From a virus, in IMG/VR virus record IMGVR_UViG_3300012936_000118, positions 1-28,834 of that record: 28,834 nucleotides of DNA, one strand, 5' to 3'. A program made the position numbers and the translations under genes. This document shows positions 4,764-24,091 of the stretch, one piece after another. The first letter of the stretch is position 1, and every line of letters begins with the position of its first letter. A model generated the notes under the pieces. That model was not told the DNA's origin, did no database searches, and saw only the letters and a program-made list of their open reading frames with translations.

Positions 4764-5111
4764 TCAATGAACCAAATCGACATCAATACCAGCAGACACT
4801 AATTTGATCTGATATTCTGACAACCCTTTCAGCAACTGGGCAAGAACCTTTGCAGTAATAACTGATATCACTATAACCTCCCCCTTTTGATCTCCATCCA
4901 AAAGACCATAACCATCTACCGTTTGACATATCGTTCGCGCAGTCAAGAATGCGTCTATAACCGTTTCCTTTTGATAGTCACTGTACTTAATATTTTCTTG
5001 ATAGTAATCCCTCATGATGCACTCAAGTCTTGCTTCATACGACTTGGCAGTCTCATAGAAAGCAATCAACGCACTTCTCGGATACTCAACCCCTTTTGCG
5101 GACTGGGACAT
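4764..5111 (-). CDS. Unknown alpha-helical phage protein
   Basis: About 115 residues, not recognised. The first half is helical with YETAKSYEARLECIMRDYY, and the second contains KGEVIVISVITAKVLAQLLKGL. There are no catalytic motifs or membrane spans. The ATG at 5111 has GAGGGTG 3 bp upstream; a GTG two codons earlier (5117) is nearly as good. The start lies inside the 3' end of the upstream gene (26-32 base overlap). Confidence 0.65.
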   Translation of the reverse strand: MSQSAKGVEYPRSALIAFYETAKSYEARLECIMRDYYQENIKYSDYQKETVIDAFLTARTICQTVDGYGLLDGDQKGEVIVISVITAKVLAQLLKGLSEYQIKLVSAGIDVDLVH

Positions 5112-6302: not shown

Positions 6303-6572
6303 TTAGAAAAGTTTAATAATAAAAGCGGATACAAGACCAACAATGGAAGTGAAAAGGGTCCAGATCATTTTTGTGGAAGTATCCTTCCAAGTTTCCAATG
6401 CTTTAAGTCTAGCGTACAGACCTTCATCTGGGTTGTAAACCGCTTCTTTTATTTTATTTATATTTTCTAGCATCTCCTCTTGCTTCTCTTTGACGCCATC
6501 AATGTTGGTTATCAGACGATCAAACTTAATCTCTAAATCTACTAGAAAATCCTTTCCTGCTTCTTGTGACAT
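6303..6572 (-). CDS. Coiled-coil protein with C-terminal membrane anchor (XhlA-like)
   Basis: The 89-residue protein has a charged heptad-like region (FDRLITNIDGVKEKQEEMLENINKI, split at about residue 40), ARLKALETWK in the middle, and one membrane helix IWTLFTSIVGLVSAFIIKLF at the very C-terminus. This tail-anchored coiled-coil layout, with an Glu-x-Trp just before the helix, resembles XhlA-type hemolysin/holin-accessory proteins. No holin is recognisable beside it, so a lysis role is a guess. GGGAGG precedes the ATG. It is the first gene after groEL. Confidence 0.6.
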   Translation of the reverse strand: MSQEAGKDFLVDLEIKFDRLITNIDGVKEKQEEMLENINKIKEAVYNPDEGLYARLKALETWKDTSTKMIWTLFTSIVGLVSAFIIKLF

Positions 6573-6611: not shown

Positions 6612-8165
6612 TTATGACTCAATAATTGCGTTACTGGTCATGATCAAAGTTCCTGCTACAGACACTGCATTCTGAAGAGCGCATCGAGTAACCTTGGCAG
6701 GATCAATTACACCCTTCTCCAGCAAGTTCACAGTTTCTCCGTTAGAGAAGTCAATGCCCGTACAGTTGTCCTCAATGGTATCTAACTTCATAAAGCAGAC
6801 TTCTGGACTCATACCAGCATTGTTTGCCATTGTCCTAATCGGTTCTTTCAAAGCGTCTTGAAGGATATACGAACCTGGAGTTCCGTCGCTTAAAGTCTTT
6901 GAAAGATTATACAAGGTGATCCCACCACCTGGTACAACACCCTCTTGTTGAGCAGAACGAACTGCTTCTAATGCGTCTTCGATGCGATGCTTCTTCTCAA
7001 TCATCTCGATTTCTGTTGCTGCGCCGACCTTAATAACTGCAATCCCAGAAGACAATCTTGTGACCCGCTCTTGCAATCTCTCTGCTGAATGGAGATCGTT
7101 TGTCTCAGAGATCTCTAATTTGATATCTTCAATTCTCTTCTCGATCTCTGTCGTGTCTCCCGTACCGTCTACTACGGTGGTCTGACCTTTTGAAATCTCT
7201 ACATTGCGGGCAGTGCCAAAGTCTAATAGTTTTACGTCAGCAAGCGAATGACCCTCTGATCGCCTGAAGAACTTACCACCAGTAGCGATAGCAAGATCTG
7301 CCATGATGCTTCGGCGTTCCTCTCCGTAACGAGGACCCTTTACCGCTGCGACCTTCATACTTCCACGAACCGTGTTCATGATCAATGCGGCGAGTGCCTG
7401 ACCTTCAATGTCATCTGCTACAATGATCAAAGGTTTGTTTTCTCTTGCAACGATCTCCAGGGCGGGCAGGATCTGATCGACAGTTTCCAACTTTTCGTCT
7501 GTGATCAGAAACATTGGACTGTCATACCTTACAACCTTCTTCCTCTCATCAGTGATAAAGGCACCTGCTGCATAACCAGAATCAAACCTAAAACCCTCCA
7601 CCAAGTCTAAACTAGTGTCCAGCGACCGTGCTTCCTCTACTGTGATGGATCCATTCTTCCCCACACGATCCACTGCTGTAGCGATCAGGTTGCCGATATC
7701 ATCATCATTGTTTGCAGAGATCTTTGCGATATGTGCAACGTCCTCTTCAGATGAAATGGGTTGGGCGACCTCTTTCAACCCCTCTACCACCTGAGTCAAG
7801 GCAGTATCCAGAGACCTTTTGATTTCAATCGGAGATGTCCCGGAGTCAACATACTTCAAAGCAGTGTTGAAGATTGCTCTTGTCAAGACTGTAGAAGTCG
7901 TAGTACCATCGCCTGCATCTGAGTTTGTTTTAGCAGATGCCTGCTTGACTACGGTTGCGCCCGCATTCTCTACTGGGTCAGACAATGATACAAACCCAGC
8001 GACTGTAACACCATCCTTTGTAACGATGGGTTGATTGTCCTTGCCTTGCAGCAAGACGTTTTGACCTTTTGGTCCTAGTGTAACAGACACGTAGTCTGCC
8101 AAGATATTGACGCCTCGGGAGATCTTCCTCCTGAGTTTCGCGCCCTCATTCAATGTTTTAGTCAT
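6612..8165 (-). CDS. groEL: Chaperonin GroEL (60 kDa type)
   Basis: This 517-residue group I chaperonin subunit would form ATP-driven folding rings. ATP-site elements are present: TLGPKGQNV, TKDGV (Asp51), DGTTT (86-90), GVVPGGG (409-415), and Asp397 matching E. coli Asp398, needed for hydrolysis. The apical domain aligns well with E. coli, but the substrate/GroES groove differs. E. coli Tyr203 corresponds to Ala202 here and Val264 to Met, while Tyr199, Phe204, Leu234 and Leu237 are kept. The C-terminus ends at SNAIIES and lacks the GGM tail, explaining the shorter length (E. coli 548). The gene has its own strong promoter; its partner groES lies 15 kb away at 23450-23764. Phage chaperonins probably fold capsid or replication proteins (known for phage EL); that role is inferred here. 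Confidence 0.97.
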   Translation of the reverse strand: MTKTLNEGAKLRRKISRGVNILADYVSVTLGPKGQNVLLQGKDNQPIVTKDGVTVAGFVSLSDPVENAGATVVKQASAKTNSDAGDGTTTSTVLTRAIFNTALKYVDSGTSPIEIKRSLDTALTQVVEGLKEVAQPISSEEDVAHIAKISANNDDDIGNLIATAVDRVGKNGSITVEEARSLDTSLDLVEGFRFDSGYAAGAFITDERKKVVRYDSPMFLITDEKLETVDQILPALEIVARENKPLIIVADDIEGQALAALIMNTVRGSMKVAAVKGPRYGEERRSIMADLAIATGGKFFRRSEGHSLADVKLLDFGTARNVEISKGQTTVVDGTGDTTEIEKRIEDIKLEISETNDLHSAERLQERVTRLSSGIAVIKVGAATEIEMIEKKHRIEDALEAVRSAQQEGVVPGGGITLYNLSKTLSDGTPGSYILQDALKEPIRTMANNAGMSPEVCFMKLDTIEDNCTGIDFSNGETVNLLEKGVIDPAKVTRCALQNAVSVAGTLIMTSNAIIES

Positions 8166-8189
8166 TAGTTCCTCTCTTTGTGAGATTAT

Positions 8190-8218
8190 ATTATAAACAC
8201 AGGAGATGTGTTTGTCAA
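8190..8218 (-). promoter_or_regulatory. Strong sigma70-type promoter of groEL
   Basis: The minus strand reads TTGACA (8213-8218), 17 bases, TATAAT (8190-8195), a perfect consensus at optimal spacing, continuing ATAATCTC. The same 14-base TATAATATAATCTC occurs at the promoter at 24063. The groEL ATG is 25 bases below the -10 with AGAGG just before it. Confidence 0.85.
8195..8213. promoter_or_regulatory. Palindrome filling the groEL promoter spacer (candidate operator)
   Basis: AAACACA (8195-8201), five bases, TGTGTTT (8207-8213) form a perfect 7+7 inverted repeat lying exactly between the -35 and -10 boxes. A repressor bound here would block polymerase. It is not the CIRCE element of bacterial groE genes (TTAGCACTC-N9-GAGTGCTAA). 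The strong promoter at 24063 has no such repeat. Confidence 0.5.
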
Positions 8219-8227
8219 CTATAAAAG

Positions 8228-9166
8228 TTAATTTTGTTGTATTTTTTGTGCAGCACTCTTTGCTTTCTCTGCTTTCTTTTCTGCTTTCGCTGCTTTCGTT
8301 TTAGTCTCTTTCTCTGCACCAACCAGGTCTCGCACAGCATCGATCAACTGATCGGTTTCCTCTATCAAAGAGTTAAACTTCTTATTAACCATATCAGCAA
8401 TCTGTTCTGAAACGGGAACGACGTTTGAGATATCTAGCGTTCCGATGAGTTCTGCCCTCAAGGTCACTCCATCCTTAGACACCTCTTCGCCCTTAGATGC
8501 TGCCTTGTAGTAAGACAGACTGAACTGACCTTCAGCGGATTCTTCTTCAAGAGACACCTTAATGTTATAAAAAGATAGTTCGTTCTTGTCTTCGCTTTTG
8601 CGAGCAACAATGTAATCGACAGAACCACCTGCTGATGCGAGTAACTTCTTAGATCCAGTGATGGTTGTCTTAGGTCCTATCAACTTTAATGAGACACCCT
8701 CGCCACTAGAAGACACTACATCCTTGATGTTATCAACCGTGCTAGTCTCCACCTTCATGCCAAATAGGATTGCGAACAACCTCTCGAAAAGAAACCCTGC
8801 GGAGGAAGGACTGGCATTGTCAACGAGATTGTAGATAACTCTCATCATCCTTACACGATTCATTAAATCGACAGGAGACTTGTCTTGAATACTTTCTGAT
8901 TGCAATCTAGAACCCATATCGATGAGTCTGGAGATGCCAGTTCCAAAGTCTGCTGATTTGTCAATACCTAATGATTTGGCAACCGAAACAATTTGATTAT
9001 AATCTTTATCCTCAATATCCTCTTCCCTGCCCAAGAAACTGGCATCAAGTTTCAAGTCTAAGAATGCTGGAAACTTTTTATACTTGACTTCCTGCTCATT
9101 CAATACAGGTTTGGAATATCTTTCTACTAAAGATAATACTTCTTTATAAATGTTGTAGTCGCCCAT
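8228..9166 (-). CDS. Putative PD-(D/E)xK-like nuclease-fold phage protein
   Basis: The 312-residue protein has a helical N-terminal half (IYKEVLSLVERY; GISRLIDMGSRL). Then comes SSAGFLFERLFAILFGMKV (122-140), GEGVSLKLIG with Lys near 162, a GSKKLL turn and VDYIVARKSED. The spacing GFLFE...S.K suggests a restriction-endonuclease-like core, as in a phage family I know only as uncharacterised. The C-terminus (about 285-312) is a Lys/Ala-rich helical tail. The exact substrate is unknown; a structural role cannot be excluded. GGAGG is 5 bp before the ATG. It is the last gene before the groEL promoter and is co-transcribed with clpP. Confidence 0.6.
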   Translation of the reverse strand: MGDYNIYKEVLSLVERYSKPVLNEQEVKYKKFPAFLDLKLDASFLGREEDIEDKDYNQIVSVAKSLGIDKSADFGTGISRLIDMGSRLQSESIQDKSPVDLMNRVRMMRVIYNLVDNASPSSAGFLFERLFAILFGMKVETSTVDNIKDVVSSSGEGVSLKLIGPKTTITGSKKLLASAGGSVDYIVARKSEDKNELSFYNIKVSLEEESAEGQFSLSYYKAASKGEEVSKDGVTLRAELIGTLDISNVVPVSEQIADMVNKKFNSLIEETDQLIDAVRDLVGAEKETKTKAAKAEKKAEKAKSAAQKIQQN

Positions 9167-11335: not shown

Positions 11336-11560
11336 TTATTCAAAAAAGTTTCTTTTATTGCATATTCTAGATAGTTTTTTCATTGCCTGTGTCTCTAATT
11401 GCTTAACACGTACAAAACTTATACCTAATCTTTTGCCGACCTCTTCCAAGGTCATGGCACCATTTTTCCTAATTGCTTCATAAATGCAGTTGTTATCTTC
11501 CGGGGAATCTATCCAAGACCGGTCCTTTTCTAATTTCTCTTTTTTCTCTTGCTTTGTCAT
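11336..11560 (-). CDS. Mini sigma-factor: region 4-type helix-turn-helix only
   Basis: The 74-residue protein has a charged N-terminus (KQEKKEKLEKDRSW) and then MTLEEVGKRLGISFVRVKQL followed by ETQAMKKLSR (about residues 36-65). This closely follows the sigma70 region 4.2 signature (TLEEVGxxxGVTRERVRQIExxALxKLR). Regions 2 and 3 are absent. It may bind -35-like DNA or the RNA polymerase beta flap and redirect transcription to phage promoters, as other small phage region-4-like proteins do; the exact role is inferred. It overlaps the upstream gene as ATGA. Confidence 0.75.
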   Translation of the reverse strand: MTKQEKKEKLEKDRSWIDSPEDNNCIYEAIRKNGAMTLEEVGKRLGISFVRVKQLETQAMKKLSRICNKRNFFE

Positions 11561-11898
11561 ATTTCTCCATGCTCTTGCGCTATCATATCGAAAATGTCCT
11601 CAAGTTCATCTTCAGAAAGCGCAAATCTTTTTTGGATCTCCTTTCCTTTGTTTATTAGATCTCTAGTCTTCTTTTTCTTATCCTTACCTCGATGGGTTAG
11701 TTTTGTCTTTAGTTTCTCGACTACTTCAAGCATGTCCTCGTCTTTGTCCAGGTACAGTTGAATCAATGTAGTGAAAAAATTTTGCTGCGAGAAACCGTCG
11801 TGACGAAGACGGATTCTCAAATCAACATGTAACTTATCCAATATTAAAAACTGTACTGCCTTATAGTCTGAACCATACTTGTCGTAATACTTTTTCAT
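11557..11898 (-). CDS. Unknown helical, possibly DNA-binding protein
   Basis: 113 residues. The first half (VQFLILDKLHVDLRIRLRHD, then FFTTLIQLYL) has the strand-helix-helix feel of ribbon-helix-helix proteins. A strongly basic middle (THRGKDKKKKTRD) is followed by an acidic C-terminus FALSEDELEDIFDMIAQEHGE. No enzyme motif is seen. It overlaps the IMPDH gene stop and the mini-sigma start as ATGA and may work with the latter; that link is only positional. Confidence 0.65.
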   Translation of the reverse strand: MKKYYDKYGSDYKAVQFLILDKLHVDLRIRLRHDGFSQQNFFTTLIQLYLDKDEDMLEVVEKLKTKLTHRGKDKKKKTRDLINKGKEIQKRFALSEDELEDIFDMIAQEHGEI

Positions 11899-13698: not shown

Positions 13699-14304
13699 TT
13701 AACAATTAATCTTTCTATTGTCAAGATATTTTTTCCACTCTTCTAATGTTTTTTTGCCTTTGGAATCATTGCACGGAAAGCAGCAAGCAACCACGTTGTC
13801 TATAGTATAATGACCGTCACTATCTACTCGGTCCAATCCAATGGTCTCAATCTCTGCTCCACAATATTCACAAGGTTTTTGCCAAAAGGATTCAAATTGT
13901 TCCATCGTCAAATGGAACTCTATCCCTCTTTGTTTTGCGCCGCTCTTATAATCACAGAATCTCCCTGAAGGCGTGCGGCGGTATTGCTTTTGGTATTCTG
14001 AGTTGCGTTCTTTGTTTTGTTCACGGTATTGCTTAAATCTTTCTTTGTTTTGTTCATAGTATTGCTTTTGGTATTCTGAGATGCTTTCTTTGTTTTGTTC
14101 ACGCCATTGCTTGGTGCGTTCTTGGATACGTTCTTTGTTTTGTTCACGCCATCGCTTGGTGCGTTCTTGTTCGCGTTCTTTGTTTTGTTCATAGTGTTGC
14201 TTTCTGCAATCCTTGCATTGGAATCGCAACCCGTCTTTACTAGATGCTCTTTTGCCGAACTTTTCAAATGGTTTCTCTTGCTTGCACTTACTACACACCT
14301 TCAT
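13699..14304 (-). CDS. HNH endonuclease with zinc ribbon and repetitive linker
   Basis: 201 residues from the ATG at 14304 (AGGTG 6 bp upstream). The N-terminal ribbon uses Cys4, Cys7, Cys30 and Cys33. Residues about 38-100 are a charged helical linker built from repeats of EQNKERIQERTKRWR. The C-terminal part has CEYCGAE, IGLDRVDSDGHYTIDN and VVACCFPCNDSKG, an HNH nuclease core with zinc-binding CxxC pairs. The gene stands immediately downstream of dnaE. HNH genes are often free-standing homing endonucleases, so intrusion next to the polymerase gene is plausible; the target is not known. Confidence 0.88.
   Translation of the reverse strand: MKVCSKCKQEKPFEKFGKRASSKDGLRFQCKDCRKQHYEQNKEREQERTKRWREQNKERIQERTKQWREQNKESISEYQKQYYEQNKERFKQYREQNKERNSEYQKQYRRTPSGRFCDYKSGAKQRGIEFHLTMEQFESFWQKPCEYCGAEIETIGLDRVDSDGHYTIDNVVACCFPCNDSKGKKTLEEWKKYLDNRKINC
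14008..14190 (-). repeat. Tandem 45-bp repeat in the HNH linker
   Basis: The 15-mer TTCTTTGTTTTGTTC (plus strand) recurs at 14008, 14041, 14086, 14131 and 14176. Steps are 33, 45, 45 and 45 bases, i.e. in-frame units of 11 or 15 residues around EQNKER. The near identity of the copies points to recent expansion by slippage or unequal recombination. Confidence 0.9.
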
Positions 14305-14313
14305 GAATAGCAC

Positions 14314-18854: not shown

Positions 18855-19614
18855 CAAAAATATCCCTTAAAGTAATGTTACTGCAAAAATGAATCTTATC
18901 AGTTGAACGATACATGTTCTTAGATATTAGTTCCTTTTCTCTCAAGGTAGGGCGCATCCTGACTTTGTATCTGTGAGCAATGCCCTTCTTATCGTAATAC
19001 GAGACTCGCCCCTTAACTCCACCCTCGGTTAGGTGATATCTTGTTTTGAACACTGCCATTGTATCAGAATAATCAAACTCTGTCAACTGATCTTCTCTTA
19101 AATAAGAGACCGCTGCTATGTCTTTGAACGTTTTGTTTCCGTCTATTCTATCAGAGATGTAGAAAATAATATCGTTAATGAAATCATCACCAGTCTTGAT
19201 TCTGTCTTGATTGTGAGGTTCACACCTATCTACAGAAAACCAATCCACTACACGATAAAGTTTCTCGGATTTGTTCAATAGGTCCAGAGTATGGTTAACA
19301 CCGTTTTCGGTTTCAAACAAAAAGCATTGGTCATATTCTATATCTGTGACACTGGTGTTGTTGTGGACTACACGTATCTTATCTTCATCAACCGTGACCT
19401 GGTTAACTGAATCATAGAAAGGATTCAAACCATCTAGTCCAAGTGCCCATAGGTCTTTTGACCACATCTCTAATTCTGGTGTTTCATCGAATGTATCAAA
19501 TCGAAAAGGATATTCATCGTTTGGTATAACGATTGGTATCTTCTTTTTTCTTGCAAAAGAAACGGCAGCGGTGGAAGAACCCACCACTACCTTTTTGTGC
19601 CTCATCTTTTTCAT
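18838..19614 (-). CDS. Unknown protein with Rossmann-like N-terminus
   Basis: 258 residues from the ATG at 19614, which overlaps the VWA gene stop as ATGA. The N-terminus HKKVVVGSSTAAVSFARKKK, then IPIVIPNDEYPFRFD looks like the first beta-alpha-beta of a dinucleotide-binding fold with an altered glycine loop (GSSTAA). The middle has VVDWFSVDRCEPH, FYISDRIDGN and EFDYSDTMAVF. No catalytic motif is clear; an oxidoreductase or a sugar-modifying enzyme is possible. It is paired with the nucleotidyltransferase-like gene 17943-18854. Confidence 0.6.
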   Translation of the reverse strand: MKKMRHKKVVVGSSTAAVSFARKKKIPIVIPNDEYPFRFDTFDETPELEMWSKDLWALGLDGLNPFYDSVNQVTVDEDKIRVVHNNTSVTDIEYDQCFLFETENGVNHTLDLLNKSEKLYRVVDWFSVDRCEPHNQDRIKTGDDFINDIIFYISDRIDGNKTFKDIAAVSYLREDQLTEFDYSDTMAVFKTRYHLTEGGVKGRVSYYDKKGIAHRYKVRMRPTLREKELISKNMYRSTDKIHFCSNITLRDIFDGKTP

Positions 19615-21863
19615 TCGACTTGCGGGATACACAATCCTAAATTGTAATCATAAGGATAGTGGTTAACAGTAAAGTATTGGTTCACAAAATTGTACCCTAG
19701 AGATCGAAGACCACCTAGTTGCTCAACTTGATTTATCTCCTCTTCCTCCTCTCTAGGCAGACATGCCTGGTCGATAATGGTCATCAAGTCATTGTACATA
19801 GTGACAGGGTCTCTGGTTAAAAAGAAGTCCATACCACCTGTCTCCAGCGCTCTTTCATCCCAGTCATAGAACTTAGGGGCAAAAGTGTGCAATACCGTTT
19901 TGCTGGCGTTGGTCAGTGCTGTCCTCAAGTCATCTCGATCAACAGGTGGTTCAAGAAAACTTTGAGACGCCTCGTCGCTAAAGACAATGATTATCCGATC
20001 TGTACCGGGTCTCCAATTGATAACAAATTCATTTAATCGAGGTTCTGAACCAATTCCTTGCACCCAATCCCTTCCTGCTAAATCAACCTCACCACTAAGA
20101 TTTCTAAGTGACAAATACACCGCATCTCTCAACATCTCCTGACCTCCGGGATCATAATCAACTGCTGCAAACCTAGCAAGAAAATCCTCAAAGGGAGAGA
20201 TATTTGAAACTATACGAAGCATCTCCCTATGACCGCCTCCATTGAGCATGACGTCGGTTGGTCCGATTACCAAACCCCAGTGGATCGCATCCTCTGCATC
20301 AAAGTGCTGGGCGAACCGTGACAAAGCAACGAACACCGCCTGGATCTCTTCCCTCATAGAACCGCTGACGTCTACGATTAAAAGAATGTCTGTATCCGCA
20401 ACCTCTTCTCCATAATCAACCTCACCATCACAGTCATCGTCTGCCCCATTGCAAATCTCTCTTGAAGGAATTATTTCTCCTCCGCACAAATCTTCTACAA
20501 AATTAATGTTGTCATCATCCGCTCCCCAACGACCCTCAGAACAGTATTGAACTCCATCGGTGCATATGCCCACGCCAAGAGTTTCTGGTTCCCCAGTGTA
20601 ACAATCCCTGGTCAAACCCTCATCGTTCATCTCATCGCAATCTTCGTCAAAAGCGTTGCACGTCTCTATCTCTAGTGCCTGACCCATGCCTGGGTGACAT
20701 TCTACGTTAGGAGGAGGTTCGAAAAAGACACATGCCGCCAAACAGGGGGTCATCTCCATTTCGGTGCAGTCAACATCAATGCACTGGCATGTCTTAAATC
20801 CTGATCCGCAGATCAAGGGAGGTTCTGCACAAGGGAACAACACTCCAACTTGATCTACTGTACAGAGGCAATCCAACCCGTCATCAATGAATCCATTGCA
20901 ATCATTATCGAAACCATCACAAATCTCTTCAATTGGCGCACGAGCAGAGCAAGAATTCCATCTACCACCGATGCAAGTCTCGATCCCTCTTTCGCATAAT
21001 GTCTCGCACTCTCTAACTAGATCTTCGTCTGTGTTGCCGTCACAGTCGTTGTCCTCACCGTCGCAGACCTCATTCGGCAGTGGTCCACATTGACCACATG
21101 CATTTTCCTGTCCTTCGTCTACTGTGCCGTCACAATCATTGTCAACTAAGTCACAAACTTCTTCGCCTTGGTTTGGAGAAATACAATCAGTTACCACACC
21201 CTCTCGACAGATCCCAATACCAGGACCACAAGGTCCTTCACAAACTACAGGATCTTCATCCACTCGACTGTCACAATCATTGTCCTGATTATCACACAGT
21301 TCAGGTTCACAGGCAATACAAGGACCATGCATGATCTCACCCTTGTCACACAAGACTCTTTGTTGCCCTTGACGACCATCAGGTAATTGGCACTCAAACC
21401 AACGCAAAAATTCCCGCGAAGTACCGGGAGGGCATTCGTGTGCCACTTCACAAGGACTTTGATAAATTATTTCTGGAGGTGGACATTGAGGGTCAGTACC
21501 AAACTCGCACTGCTCCTCACTCTCATTACAGACCTCAACAACCACCAACATTGACTGAATTGAATTATCTGGGGTTGGAGGACAAAACCACTCCTGCCTT
21601 GAACAGCACTGTGGAAAACAGGTACAATACGCCTGGTAGTTGTCCACCGTAACCTCTTCGCATGAATTAACTTGAGGTGCTGCATCTTGCTTCAAGGCAT
21701 CTCTGGGAGGAGAACGGTCAATATAAGAAACCTCTGGTCCATAATCAATAGAAGTAACATCACTAATTCTATTAAGGTCTTCAGATTGCTCCCTCTTTAG
21801 TGATTCGTCTTCGCACGAGATCAGGACCAGTGACCCAATCAAAACTGCCAACCTAACATCCAT
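19611..21863 (-). CDS. Large lipoprotein with MopE-like Cys/Asp repeats and a VWA domain
   Basis: 750 residues from the ATG at 21863 (AGGATGG just upstream; 11-base overlap with the transglycosylase gene). The signal peptide MDVRLAVLIGSLVLISC ends in a lipobox with Cys17. The next 470 residues are Cys-rich and carry six repeats of the type CDGxDNDCDGxxDEG (about 190, 237, 267, 315, 402, 471), the putative metal-binding MopE motif. Residues 492-700 form a von Willebrand A domain with MIDAS DVSGS (498-502) and VFSDEAS (627-633). It would be lipid-anchored in the envelope, likely calcium-binding, and mediate adhesion or sense the surface. This is a host-like secreted protein type, suggesting acquisition from a Myxococcota/Bradymonadota-like bacterium. 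Confidence 0.9.
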   Translation of the reverse strand: MDVRLAVLIGSLVLISCEDESLKREQSEDLNRISDVTSIDYGPEVSYIDRSPPRDALKQDAAPQVNSCEEVTVDNYQAYCTCFPQCCSRQEWFCPPTPDNSIQSMLVVVEVCNESEEQCEFGTDPQCPPPEIIYQSPCEVAHECPPGTSREFLRWFECQLPDGRQGQQRVLCDKGEIMHGPCIACEPELCDNQDNDCDSRVDEDPVVCEGPCGPGIGICREGVVTDCISPNQGEEVCDLVDNDCDGTVDEGQENACGQCGPLPNEVCDGEDNDCDGNTDEDLVRECETLCERGIETCIGGRWNSCSARAPIEEICDGFDNDCNGFIDDGLDCLCTVDQVGVLFPCAEPPLICGSGFKTCQCIDVDCTEMEMTPCLAACVFFEPPPNVECHPGMGQALEIETCNAFDEDCDEMNDEGLTRDCYTGEPETLGVGICTDGVQYCSEGRWGADDDNINFVEDLCGGEIIPSREICNGADDDCDGEVDYGEEVADTDILLIVDVSGSMREEIQAVFVALSRFAQHFDAEDAIHWGLVIGPTDVMLNGGGHREMLRIVSNISPFEDFLARFAAVDYDPGGQEMLRDAVYLSLRNLSGEVDLAGRDWVQGIGSEPRLNEFVINWRPGTDRIIIVFSDEASQSFLEPPVDRDDLRTALTNASKTVLHTFAPKFYDWDERALETGGMDFFLTRDPVTMYNDLMTIIDQACLPREEEEEINQVEQLGGLRSLGYNFVNQYFTVNHYPYDYNLGLCIPQVE

Positions 21864-22335
21864 CCTGCAACAACTCCCACAATGTTTTAACTTTTGTAAC
21901 ATATTTCATCCTTTTATATTTGAACCCCTTCCTTAGACATATTGTCCCTGCGTTGTAATAGCAAATTCCCTTGTCTATATCTCCCTTTGCATATACCCTA
22001 ATTGAATAAGAAAGGACTTGTGCACCAACTCTAATTGAGGTTCTTGGTCTTTTAAGTTGCTCACAAGTATACTTTTTTCTTTTAGTCTCTCTGCCGCCTG
22101 TCCACTTAGGAATCACCTGGGTTAATCCGCAGGCACCTGCTGAACTCTCTGCTCTTGGAAAATAAGAACTTTCAACGAATATCATTGCGCCCAAAAGATA
22201 GGGATCTATGTCGTTACGACTCGCCTCTCTCTCAATTGTTTTTTCATACTTGCAAACCATCCTCACCTGATAGTCGCTCATAGAAGGATATATCACCGGG
22301 AACATGGCGCATAAGGAAAGAAAGGTTGAGGACAT
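21853..22335 (-). CDS. Lytic transglycosylase (SLT domain)
   Basis: 160 residues with an N-terminal hydrophobic stretch (STFLSLCAMFPVIYPSM), probably a signal peptide. The catalytic domain shows AMIFVESSYFPRAESS with the catalytic Glu55, GACGLTQVIP (67-76) and CYYNAG (125-130), the three hallmarks of goose-lysozyme-like soluble transglycosylases. It cleaves the glycan strands of peptidoglycan with anhydro-muramic ends. It may be the endolysin or a virion-associated cell-wall enzyme; no holin is recognised beside it. The ATG shares a base with the upstream TAA (TAATG), and the next gene encodes the VWA lipoprotein. Confidence 0.9.
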   Translation of the reverse strand: MSSTFLSLCAMFPVIYPSMSDYQVRMVCKYEKTIEREASRNDIDPYLLGAMIFVESSYFPRAESSAGACGLTQVIPKWTGGRETKRKKYTCEQLKRPRTSIRVGAQVLSYSIRVYAKGDIDKGICYYNAGTICLRKGFKYKRMKYVTKVKTLWELLQDGC

Positions 22336-22751: not shown

Positions 22752-23460
22752 TCCTGCTCCTGTATGCTCTTACAGACTCTGGAAAGTGCTTTTCTGCAAT
22801 CTCCAAGCAAGCATCAGCAACTCTTTGAATCTCCCATTGAGCGCCTTCGTGAGACCTCAAAGAAACAAACTTCAAAAGGTTGTGCAGGTTTGCTGTCCCA
22901 AAGTATTGGGTGTATAAGTTCTGAGGAAGCACTCCTCTTGCTTGCTCTCTGCAAACTCCAGACTCGATCAACTGCTCATACAGTCTCAAACTTTTTTGGT
23001 TGTGGTTCTCCACTGCATCAGAAGCAAGATAACTTGGGACAGATACCTGGAACTCTCCAACATTTGAAATGCCATTGTTTAAGTCTGGATTGACTAGACT
23101 GTCCGTACTTGCCTGTCGATTTGATTTATGCTGGGTTCTAAACTCTTTAGGCGAGTAGAACTGCATATCTACAGAAGTATATCGACGACTAATTTCGTTA
23201 TACGCCCAAGTACGATGACGATGGTGCTGACTCCGAATAAACAAAGGAACAGTAAAGCGCATTGTAATAGCACAATGCTCAAATGGACTAGTGTGGTTGT
23301 GCTTAATAAGGTAGTTAATAAGTTTAATATCTTTCTCATCTACACTATCCTTCTCTGCTCCAAAAGAAACCCTAGCAGAGTTAACCACAGACAAGTCGCT
23401 TCCCATATGGGAAACGTACTCTACTGAACCAATGCCATCATTATATAGATCAATTTTCAT
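22744..23460 (-). CDS. thyX: Flavin-dependent thymidylate synthase ThyX
   Basis: 238 residues from the ATG at 23460 (GGAA 5 bp before it; a TTG one codon earlier is less likely). It makes dTMP from dUMP using FAD, NADPH and methylene-tetrahydrofolate. The signature is RHRTWAYNEISRRY (usual RHRxxSxNExSxRY; Ser replaced by Ala). Also present are NSARVSFGAE, NHTSPFEHCAITMRF and CREQARGVLPQ with the dUMP-binding Arg/Gln. The dUTPase at 13226-13678 supplies the dUMP. It overlaps groES by 11 bases and the next gene by 8. Confidence 0.97.
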   Translation of the reverse strand: MKIDLYNDGIGSVEYVSHMGSDLSVVNSARVSFGAEKDSVDEKDIKLINYLIKHNHTSPFEHCAITMRFTVPLFIRSQHHRHRTWAYNEISRRYTSVDMQFYSPKEFRTQHKSNRQASTDSLVNPDLNNGISNVGEFQVSVPSYLASDAVENHNQKSLRLYEQLIESGVCREQARGVLPQNLYTQYFGTANLHNLLKFVSLRSHEGAQWEIQRVADACLEIAEKHFPESVRAYRSRNE

Positions 23461-23764
23461 CAATATTCCGCAAAATTCCTACGACATAGTTTTCCAAAAT
23501 CAAACAGTGAGTCTTGTCGTTCACCTTAACTTCTTCAAGCATAGAGTTGTCAACAACGACAACCTTTGATCCCACACTTGATGTAGAGAGGTTCAAGAAC
23601 TGCTTTGAACAATCAACAGACACATCAACAACTGTTGCTAATGCATACTTCTCTCTGTTGGTGGTATACCCCTCTGGCAACAGAACCCCTGTTTGCTCTT
23701 CTTGCTTTTCTTCCTTGTGGGGGATAACCAACAAGTGCCTATTAACTGGTTTTAGTTTTGTCAT
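23450..23764 (-). CDS. groES: Co-chaperonin GroES
   Basis: 104 residues from the ATG at 23764 (AGGTG 6 bp upstream; a GTG three codons earlier is possible). It aligns with GroES: LKPVNRHLLVIPHKE (core strand), then the mobile loop with TGVLLPEG, where the hydrophobic triplet corresponds to IVL that inserts into GroEL, then ALATVVDVSV, VGSKVVVVD and ILENYVVGIL. The overall similarity is remote, as with T4 gp31. It should cap the phage GroEL (6612-8165) or the host GroEL. It sits in the DNA-metabolism operon, not with groEL. Confidence 0.88.
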   Translation of the reverse strand: MTKLKPVNRHLLVIPHKEEKQEEQTGVLLPEGYTTNREKYALATVVDVSVDCSKQFLNLSTSSVGSKVVVVDNSMLEEVKVNDKTHCLILENYVVGILRNIDEN

Positions 23765-23765
23765 C

Positions 23766-24032
23766 TTAAACACCTGTTAACCTCCCCATCGTTCGCTTCA
23801 ACTGATTAAAGTATTCTGTCAGTTGTTCCATATCTGCGTCTTGCTGAACAAGGCGATATGCTTTTACTGCCAATCTCATATCTTCTGTTGTCAACCAGTT
23901 GTTGTCTCTGTAACTTTCTCTAAGGTCTTTTCTTTGCTCCTTGAAAGGTTCAATACACTCCTCAATGGCAGCGAAAGATTTGATAAAGTTGATGAGATGT
24001 TCGTCTCTAGAAATTTCATTTTGATCACTCAT
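23766..24032 (-). CDS. Small helical protein, GapR/DUF2312-like
   Basis: 88 residues, nearly all helix. LINFIKSFAAIEECIEPFKE then QRKDLRESYRDNNWLTTEDM and VKAYRLVQQDADMEQL resembles the layout of GapR/DUF2312 proteins (paired helices followed by a segment where the chain is activated after Trp/Gly and a short basic helix), which bind overtwisted DNA. The match is loose. It is the first gene of the unit driven by the promoter at 24063-24091, with AAAGGAG before its start. Confidence 0.6.
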   Translation of the reverse strand: MSDQNEISRDEHLINFIKSFAAIEECIEPFKEQRKDLRESYRDNNWLTTEDMRLAVKAYRLVQQDADMEQLTEYFNQLKRTMGRLTGV

Positions 24033-24062: not shown

Positions 24063-24091
24063 ATTATAAGAACATTATATTAGATTGTCAA
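24063..24091 (-). promoter_or_regulatory. Strong sigma70-type promoter
   Basis: Minus strand TTGACA (24086-24091), 17 bases, TATAAT (24063-24068), again followed by ATAATCTC as at the groEL promoter. The -35 overlaps the last codons of the upstream gene. The leader to the ATG at 24032 is about 25 bases. It starts the unit running to the terminator at 10571-10600. Confidence 0.85.

Follow-up and report, generated by a model that had tools for sequence, protein, structure and literature searches.

The window, that is, the whole 28,834-base stretch analysed here, is a fragment of an uncultured phage, and the database record consists of that fragment itself. All of the genes named in this analysis are on the minus strand. 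The gene of main interest is groEL (6612..8165), which encodes a 517 aa chaperonin (Pfam Cpn60_TCP1, 1.5e-66) and is preceded at 8171..8176 by a probable Shine-Dalgarno sequence, GAGAGG, identified by reading. GroEL genes in uncultured marine viruses have already been published (PMC5332604). Upstream of groEL is a gene of 312 aa without a confident family match (8228..9166), and the groEL promoter sits in the 62-base gap between the two: TTGACA AACACATCTCCTGTGTT TATAAT, at 8218..8190. Its -35 box (8213..8218) begins 9 bases beyond the stop codon of the 312 aa gene, its -10 box (8190..8195) is followed by ATAAT, and with a spacer of 17 bases it matches the consensus at 12 of 12 positions. Directly 3' of groEL is an 89-aa gene (6303-6572), present in 72 of 91 loci, whose product bears a weak likeness to phage proteins labelled hemolysin in PHROGs. 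Elsewhere in the window, 19611-21902 encodes a protein of 763 aa that combines repeated DNDCD-type motifs with a von Willebrand-like segment (by reading), which in our view is unusual for a phage, and 13699-14313 encodes an HNH-like protein with tandem EQNKER repeats (also by reading).

The groEL promoter spacer, together with one base of each box, forms a perfect dyad of 19 bp, AAACACA-TCTCC-TGTGTTT (8213..8195; arms of 7 around a loop of 5), and this symmetry overlaps both the -35 and the -10 box. The preliminary description, which had reported a perfect palindrome filling a 17-base spacer at these positions, was correct in each of these respects. It was also right that the other strong promoter lacks the symmetry: the second 12/12 promoter (24091..24063), upstream of an 88-aa gene and groES (23450..23773; Pfam Cpn10, 4.6e-6), has the spacer atctaatataatgttct, in which there is no such dyad. 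No second copy of the 19-base dyad is found within 2 mismatches in the 28,834-base record, and the three further places that match at 3 mismatches are no more than the chance expectation; the groEL promoter is the only place in the fragment that has it. No regulator gene adjoining groEL was recognised in the window.

Taken by itself, the dyad in the window is modest evidence for a regulatory site, because dyads with 7-bp arms are common and several promoters offered an opportunity for one. The window contains two dyads of the 7-5-7 form and 27 perfect dyads with 7-bp arms when loops of 0-9 are allowed. Arms of 7 are reached in approximately 0.7% of spacer shuffles in which the boxes of the groEL promoter are held fixed, and there are six promoters of at least 11/12 on the minus strand of the window; we estimate the probability that any one of these six would have such arms at approximately 4%, which is mildly surprising. 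Outside the groEL promoters, arms of at least 7 are found in 0/112 dereplicated consensus promoters from the window and its relatives in a first set, and in 1/44 in a second (both discussed below). The case for the dyad is carried by comparative evidence.

The nearest relative found, L002, has a GroEL 78% identical to that of the window and groups as its sister with an SH-aLRT of 100 in a tree of 40 rows; in the phage collection, 283 records match the window GroEL, all of them at less than 60% identity. The L002 groEL promoter is TTGACA-AACACTTTCCTAGTGTT-TATAAT, with the dyad AAACACT-TTCCT-AGTGTTT. The two spacers differ at 5 of 17 bases: three of the differences are in the five-base loop, and the remaining two constitute one symmetric A/T to T/A exchange in the arms, such that the dyad is kept, and is still perfect, in the sister phage. 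A dyad would remain perfect after 5 random substitutions with a probability of 0.005, or of 0.21 if something else keeps the outer arms fixed. In exact IMG/VR scans, the joint window/L002 pattern was found in the L002 contig only. The principal alternative to a regulatory site is chance symmetry: the right arm would belong to the promoter type, the left arm would match it by accident and L002 would share both by descent. The symmetric substitution pair argues against this explanation, although under the conservative model the L002 pattern (p 0.21) is compatible with it. On balance, we consider chance a serious contender with somewhat less than even odds.

More distant relatives were compared in a set of 81 groEL loci (80 relatives and the window). 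A promoter-like site scoring at least 9 is present in 61 of the 81; among the remaining 20, a few have a misplaced gene start. The groEL promoter of L047 has a dyad in the register of the window dyad, AAACATAT-GAT-ATATGTTT, which with its 8-bp arms is longer than that of the window and likewise counts against chance. L060/L061, L007 and L087/L088 retain six of seven pairs, also in that register. The groEL promoters of L031/L035, L083 (with one change in the -10 box), L085, L086, L003, L012 and most other relatives have no dyad, and of these, L031/L035, L083, L085 and L086 belong to the same clade as L047 and L060. The preliminary description had regarded related phages that conserve the promoter and lose the dyad as evidence against its proposal, and these relatives are in part exactly that. 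Because these cousins keep the promoter without the dyad, their sequences exclude an operator conserved across the whole phage group; a lineage-specific operator is unrefuted.

In the contigs of nine relatives, AAACA-N9-TGTTT occurs exactly once in four (L002, L047, L060 and L087), each time as the groEL promoter spacer, and is absent from the other five. The inner pattern ACAC-N7-GTGT was found in 7 of the 82 loci then in the set: at groEL in the window and in L002 (counted twice, as L082 is the same place), and elsewhere in L029, L033, L041 and L072. A different layout is seen in L030, where an inverted repeat with 9-bp arms, TACCACCTG / CAGGTGGTA, lies just before groEL at about 4964-4999; by reading, it flanks the -10 box, extends to the groEL ribosome-binding site and is likewise operator-like. 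When pieces of the L002 and L047 contigs were searched for groES with tblastn, no match was obtained, from which nothing is concluded.

The right arm of the dyad is more widespread than the left. TGT, TGTT or GTGTT stands right before TATAAT in these phages, cousins keep this right arm without the left, and GTGTT or TGT also ends several promoters that have no dyad and no matching left arm. Since these motifs recur in dyad-less promoters, the right arm is partly an ordinary promoter element of the group, as the chance explanation has it. A similar picture emerges from IMG/VR, where the looser pattern TTGACAAACA-N9-TGTTTATAAT matches 17 viral stretches, four of which are groEL relatives. Because the other 13 matches precede other genes of other phages, the half-site pattern is, on this sample, not special to groEL, and the occurrence of similar partial dyads before unrelated phage genes also favours chance.

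We compared dyads in groEL promoters with those in other consensus promoters in two sets. For the first set of relatives, spacers were dereplicated at 70% and boxes of at least 11/12 were required; here, arms of at least 7 are present in 5/24 groEL promoters vs 0/112 others, and arms of at least 6 in 8/24 vs 2/112. One of the five, that of L022, is an all-A/T dyad, and removing the window/L002 group leaves 4/23 vs 0/112. This enrichment is a further argument against chance. In the second set, which consisted of 62 new contigs fetched separately, the enrichment is weak, as would be anticipated if chance were responsible: 0/21 groEL promoters vs 1/44 controls for arms of at least 7 (p 1.0), and 4/21 vs 2/44 for arms of at least 6 (p 0.08). 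When the sets are pooled, the counts are 12/45 vs 4/156 (arms of at least 6) and 5/45 vs 1/156 (arms of at least 7), which are still significant, a significance that includes the first set, in which the idea of family-wide dyads arose. Covariation at the spacer centre is not significant among 31 dereplicated 17-bp spacers (z 0.71); two other registers of 13 reach a z of 2.2, uncorrected. Both the sequences and the registers of the dyads vary between lineages. The idea that groEL promoters throughout the family carry dyads of differing sequence is therefore weak, as the register test is non-significant and the enrichment in the second set is slight.

The dyad begins 14 bases after the stop codon of the upstream gene, a position that suggests a second alternative: an RNA hairpin in read-through transcripts of that gene, acting as a weak terminator or processing site and overlapping the promoter only by crowding. 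A 23-nt stretch around the dyad folds at -5.3 kcal/mol, better than 200/200 shuffles, and by reading L007 pairs at 7/7 positions if a U-G pair is allowed. Set against this, only 2 of the 7 pairs in the stem are G-C, and RNA started at the groEL promoter would not include the dyad. No T-run follows and the dyad is absent from the terminator scan, on which grounds an intrinsic terminator was rejected; an Rfam element was likewise discarded, as there is no Rfam match in the window. We regard a hairpin function as improbable.

A location between the boxes would also suit a MerR-type activator that binds the dyad and untwists the spacer. Promoters of that type have spacers of 19-20 bp, and a consensus promoter with the optimal 17 bp should need no untwisting. 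There is also no MerR family match among the window proteins scanned, which are a subset of the window ORFs, and we consider such an activator very improbable.

Control of groESL by CIRCE and HrcA resembles the arrangement described here in that an inverted repeat lies at the groEL promoter. The CIRCE consensus, TTAGCACTC-N9-GAGTGCTAA, differs from the phage dyad in both sequence and spacing (9-N9-9), and a CIRCE/HrcA site was rejected after a search with this consensus gave 0 matches in the window at up to 3 mismatches.

Operators between the -35 and -10 boxes are a textbook arrangement, and closer parallels to the phage promoter were found in cellular genomes. When 84,980 species genomes of bacteria and archaea were scanned for TTGACA-nACAC-N7-GTGTn-TATAAT, 15 places in scattered phyla matched; the consensus promoters in those 15 genomes sum to 483. 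By our estimate, 15 matches are attainable by chance over approximately 85,000 genomes, and the idea of a host regulon was rejected on this basis. Because chance could yield this number, the count itself is no evidence, and only the neighbourhood of the matches is informative. By our reading, a repressor-type gene (RHH-antitoxin-like, XRE or LexA) adjoins 10 of the 15. The pattern is directly 5' of ribbon-helix-helix (RHH) antitoxin-like genes in L175, L178 (where a PemK/MazF gene follows), L180 and L181 (CcdA-like), although these profile matches are weak and below curated cut-offs, and L175 is assigned by 42% identity to L180 and by reading. A divergent XRE gene adjoins it in L176, L179, L182, L184 and L187, and a divergent lexA in L188. 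L176, L179 and L184, from three uncultured Bacilli, share a near-identical tACACCAAAnTGGTGT promoter, which is flanked on one side by the divergent XRE gene and on the other by a gene for a product with a signal-peptide-like start.

Among dyad-free consensus promoters of the same genomes, which served as controls, 3/28 adjoin a regulator (L209, XRE; L228, TetR; L213, NrtR-like), or 4/28 if L232 is counted, where the end of a Fic protein weakly matches a winged-helix family. The difference between 10/15 and the controls has a one-sided Fisher value of 0.0003 (0.0008 with L232). The value is 0.008 (0.017 with L232) when related cases are collapsed to 6/11, and 0.012 (0.027 with L232) when only the 7/15 listed at Pfam 0.01 are counted. 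Given this enrichment of repressor-type neighbours over the controls, the dyad arrangement tends to mark promoters under repressor control, and it lies beside RHH-like as well as XRE genes.

The likeness to these bacterial loci lies in the layout. The RHH-antitoxin-like loci L175, L178, L180 and L181 (MazE-like and CcdA-like) share the TTGACA-17-TATAAT promoter and hold ACAC-N7-GTGT in the register seen in the window, and the XRE (HTH_3) loci L176, L179, L182, L184 and L187 have the same dyad pattern and promoter placement as the window. The difference is in the neighbouring genes: the RHH-like gene directly follows the promoter in the former loci, whereas here groEL follows it and the nearest RHH-like gene is approximately 3.3 kb upstream, and the divergent XRE gene that adjoins the promoter in the latter loci has no counterpart recognised beside the phage groEL. 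A review describes the binding of antitoxins, including the RHH protein CcdA, to palindromic sites in or close to the promoters of their own genes (PMC3920265).

The nearest RHH-like gene in the window (11557..11898) encodes a protein of 113 aa and overlaps a gene for a 74-aa protein with only a sigma-70 region 4 (11336..11560; 7e-10). The AlphaFold2 model of the 113-aa protein has no helix at residues 7-20 and helices at 21-34 and 38-50, with block means of 90-97 for residues 11-60: the product is thus predicted to form an extended strand followed by two helices, as in an RHH fold. In a structure comparison, the model matched CopG chains (Z 3.7-3.8) and a MazE6 domain (3.9), weak values that stand among unrelated chains at 4.2-4.3. 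Foldseek gave no match to the PDB at E 0.001, and a profile search of PDB sequences returned nothing significant. Searches against Pfam, PHROGs and NCBIfam produced no RHH match at the thresholds applied, a result that does not itself exclude an RHH identity.

The preliminary description had named this protein as a candidate for binding the dyad, and we found nothing that links the two, since its family is common to all of the dyad-less loci checked by name (L031, L035, L083, L084, L085, L086, L003 and L012). The family was found in 66/91 loci by tblastn and in 71/90 by profile, the latter search recovering all six of the loci L083, L085, L086, L039, L046 and L048 that tblastn had missed and that might have passed for a joint loss with the dyad. 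The outward-facing strand residues are, by our reading, often hydrophobic and variable. The gene was set aside as the cognate regulator for its lack of co-distribution with the dyad; neither its spread nor its strand residues exclude it. The overlapping RHH-like/sigma-region-4 pair (11336-11898) is itself conserved in much of the phage group in a position upstream of groEL, its members being found by tblastn in 66 and 62 of 91 loci, respectively, and the RHH-like gene is directly before the sigma-region-4 gene in the 12 loci of a tblastn comparison where both were found. The RHH-like protein may serve these phages as a general transcription factor, and the pair is possibly a split phage transcription factor.

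Our preferred reading, to which we assign a probability of roughly 0.5, is that the dyad is a lineage-specific, operator-like site for a dimeric repressor. The direct observations behind it are the perfect symmetry and its position, the lack of a second such site in the fragment, the preserved dyad of L002 with its paired base change, and the repressor-type genes that tend to adjoin the bacterial sites. The single site, L002 and the bacterial pattern favour the earlier proposal of an operator at groEL, and the cousins that keep the promoter without the dyad count against it. In the operator reading, a homodimeric (or dimer-of-dimers) repressor would sit between the -35 and -10 boxes and block RNA polymerase, and the very strong phage groEL promoter would be silent until the repressor left. 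By analogy with the bacterial loci, an RHH or XRE protein would fit best, and it could be either a phage protein encoded outside the fragment or a host protein. The preliminary description also suggested that groEL could be controlled separately from groES. Each of these genes has its own strong promoter upstream, which is as far as the window speaks to this point, and separate control would follow only if the repressor exists.

A bolder version of the operator reading, which we consider unlikely, is that groEL alone among the strong promoters of these phages has a dedicated repressor whose specificity diverges fast between lineages, as in phage immunity repressors. The arms AAACACA/TGTGTTT, AAACATAT/ATATGTTT, GACATTT/AAATGTC and ACAACTA/TAGTTGT would then be the sites of different lineages, and the phage would time its chaperonin independently of the co-chaperonin. 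We know of no described case of a phage chaperonin under a dedicated repressor separate from its co-chaperonin, and our search of the literature on the regulation of phage groEL, a thin test, found nothing relevant. If the operator reading is not true, this promoter is a useful illustration that half of an apparent operator can come from a promoter-type element. If it is true, a dedicated repressor would give this phage control over its own chaperonin apart from the co-chaperonin.
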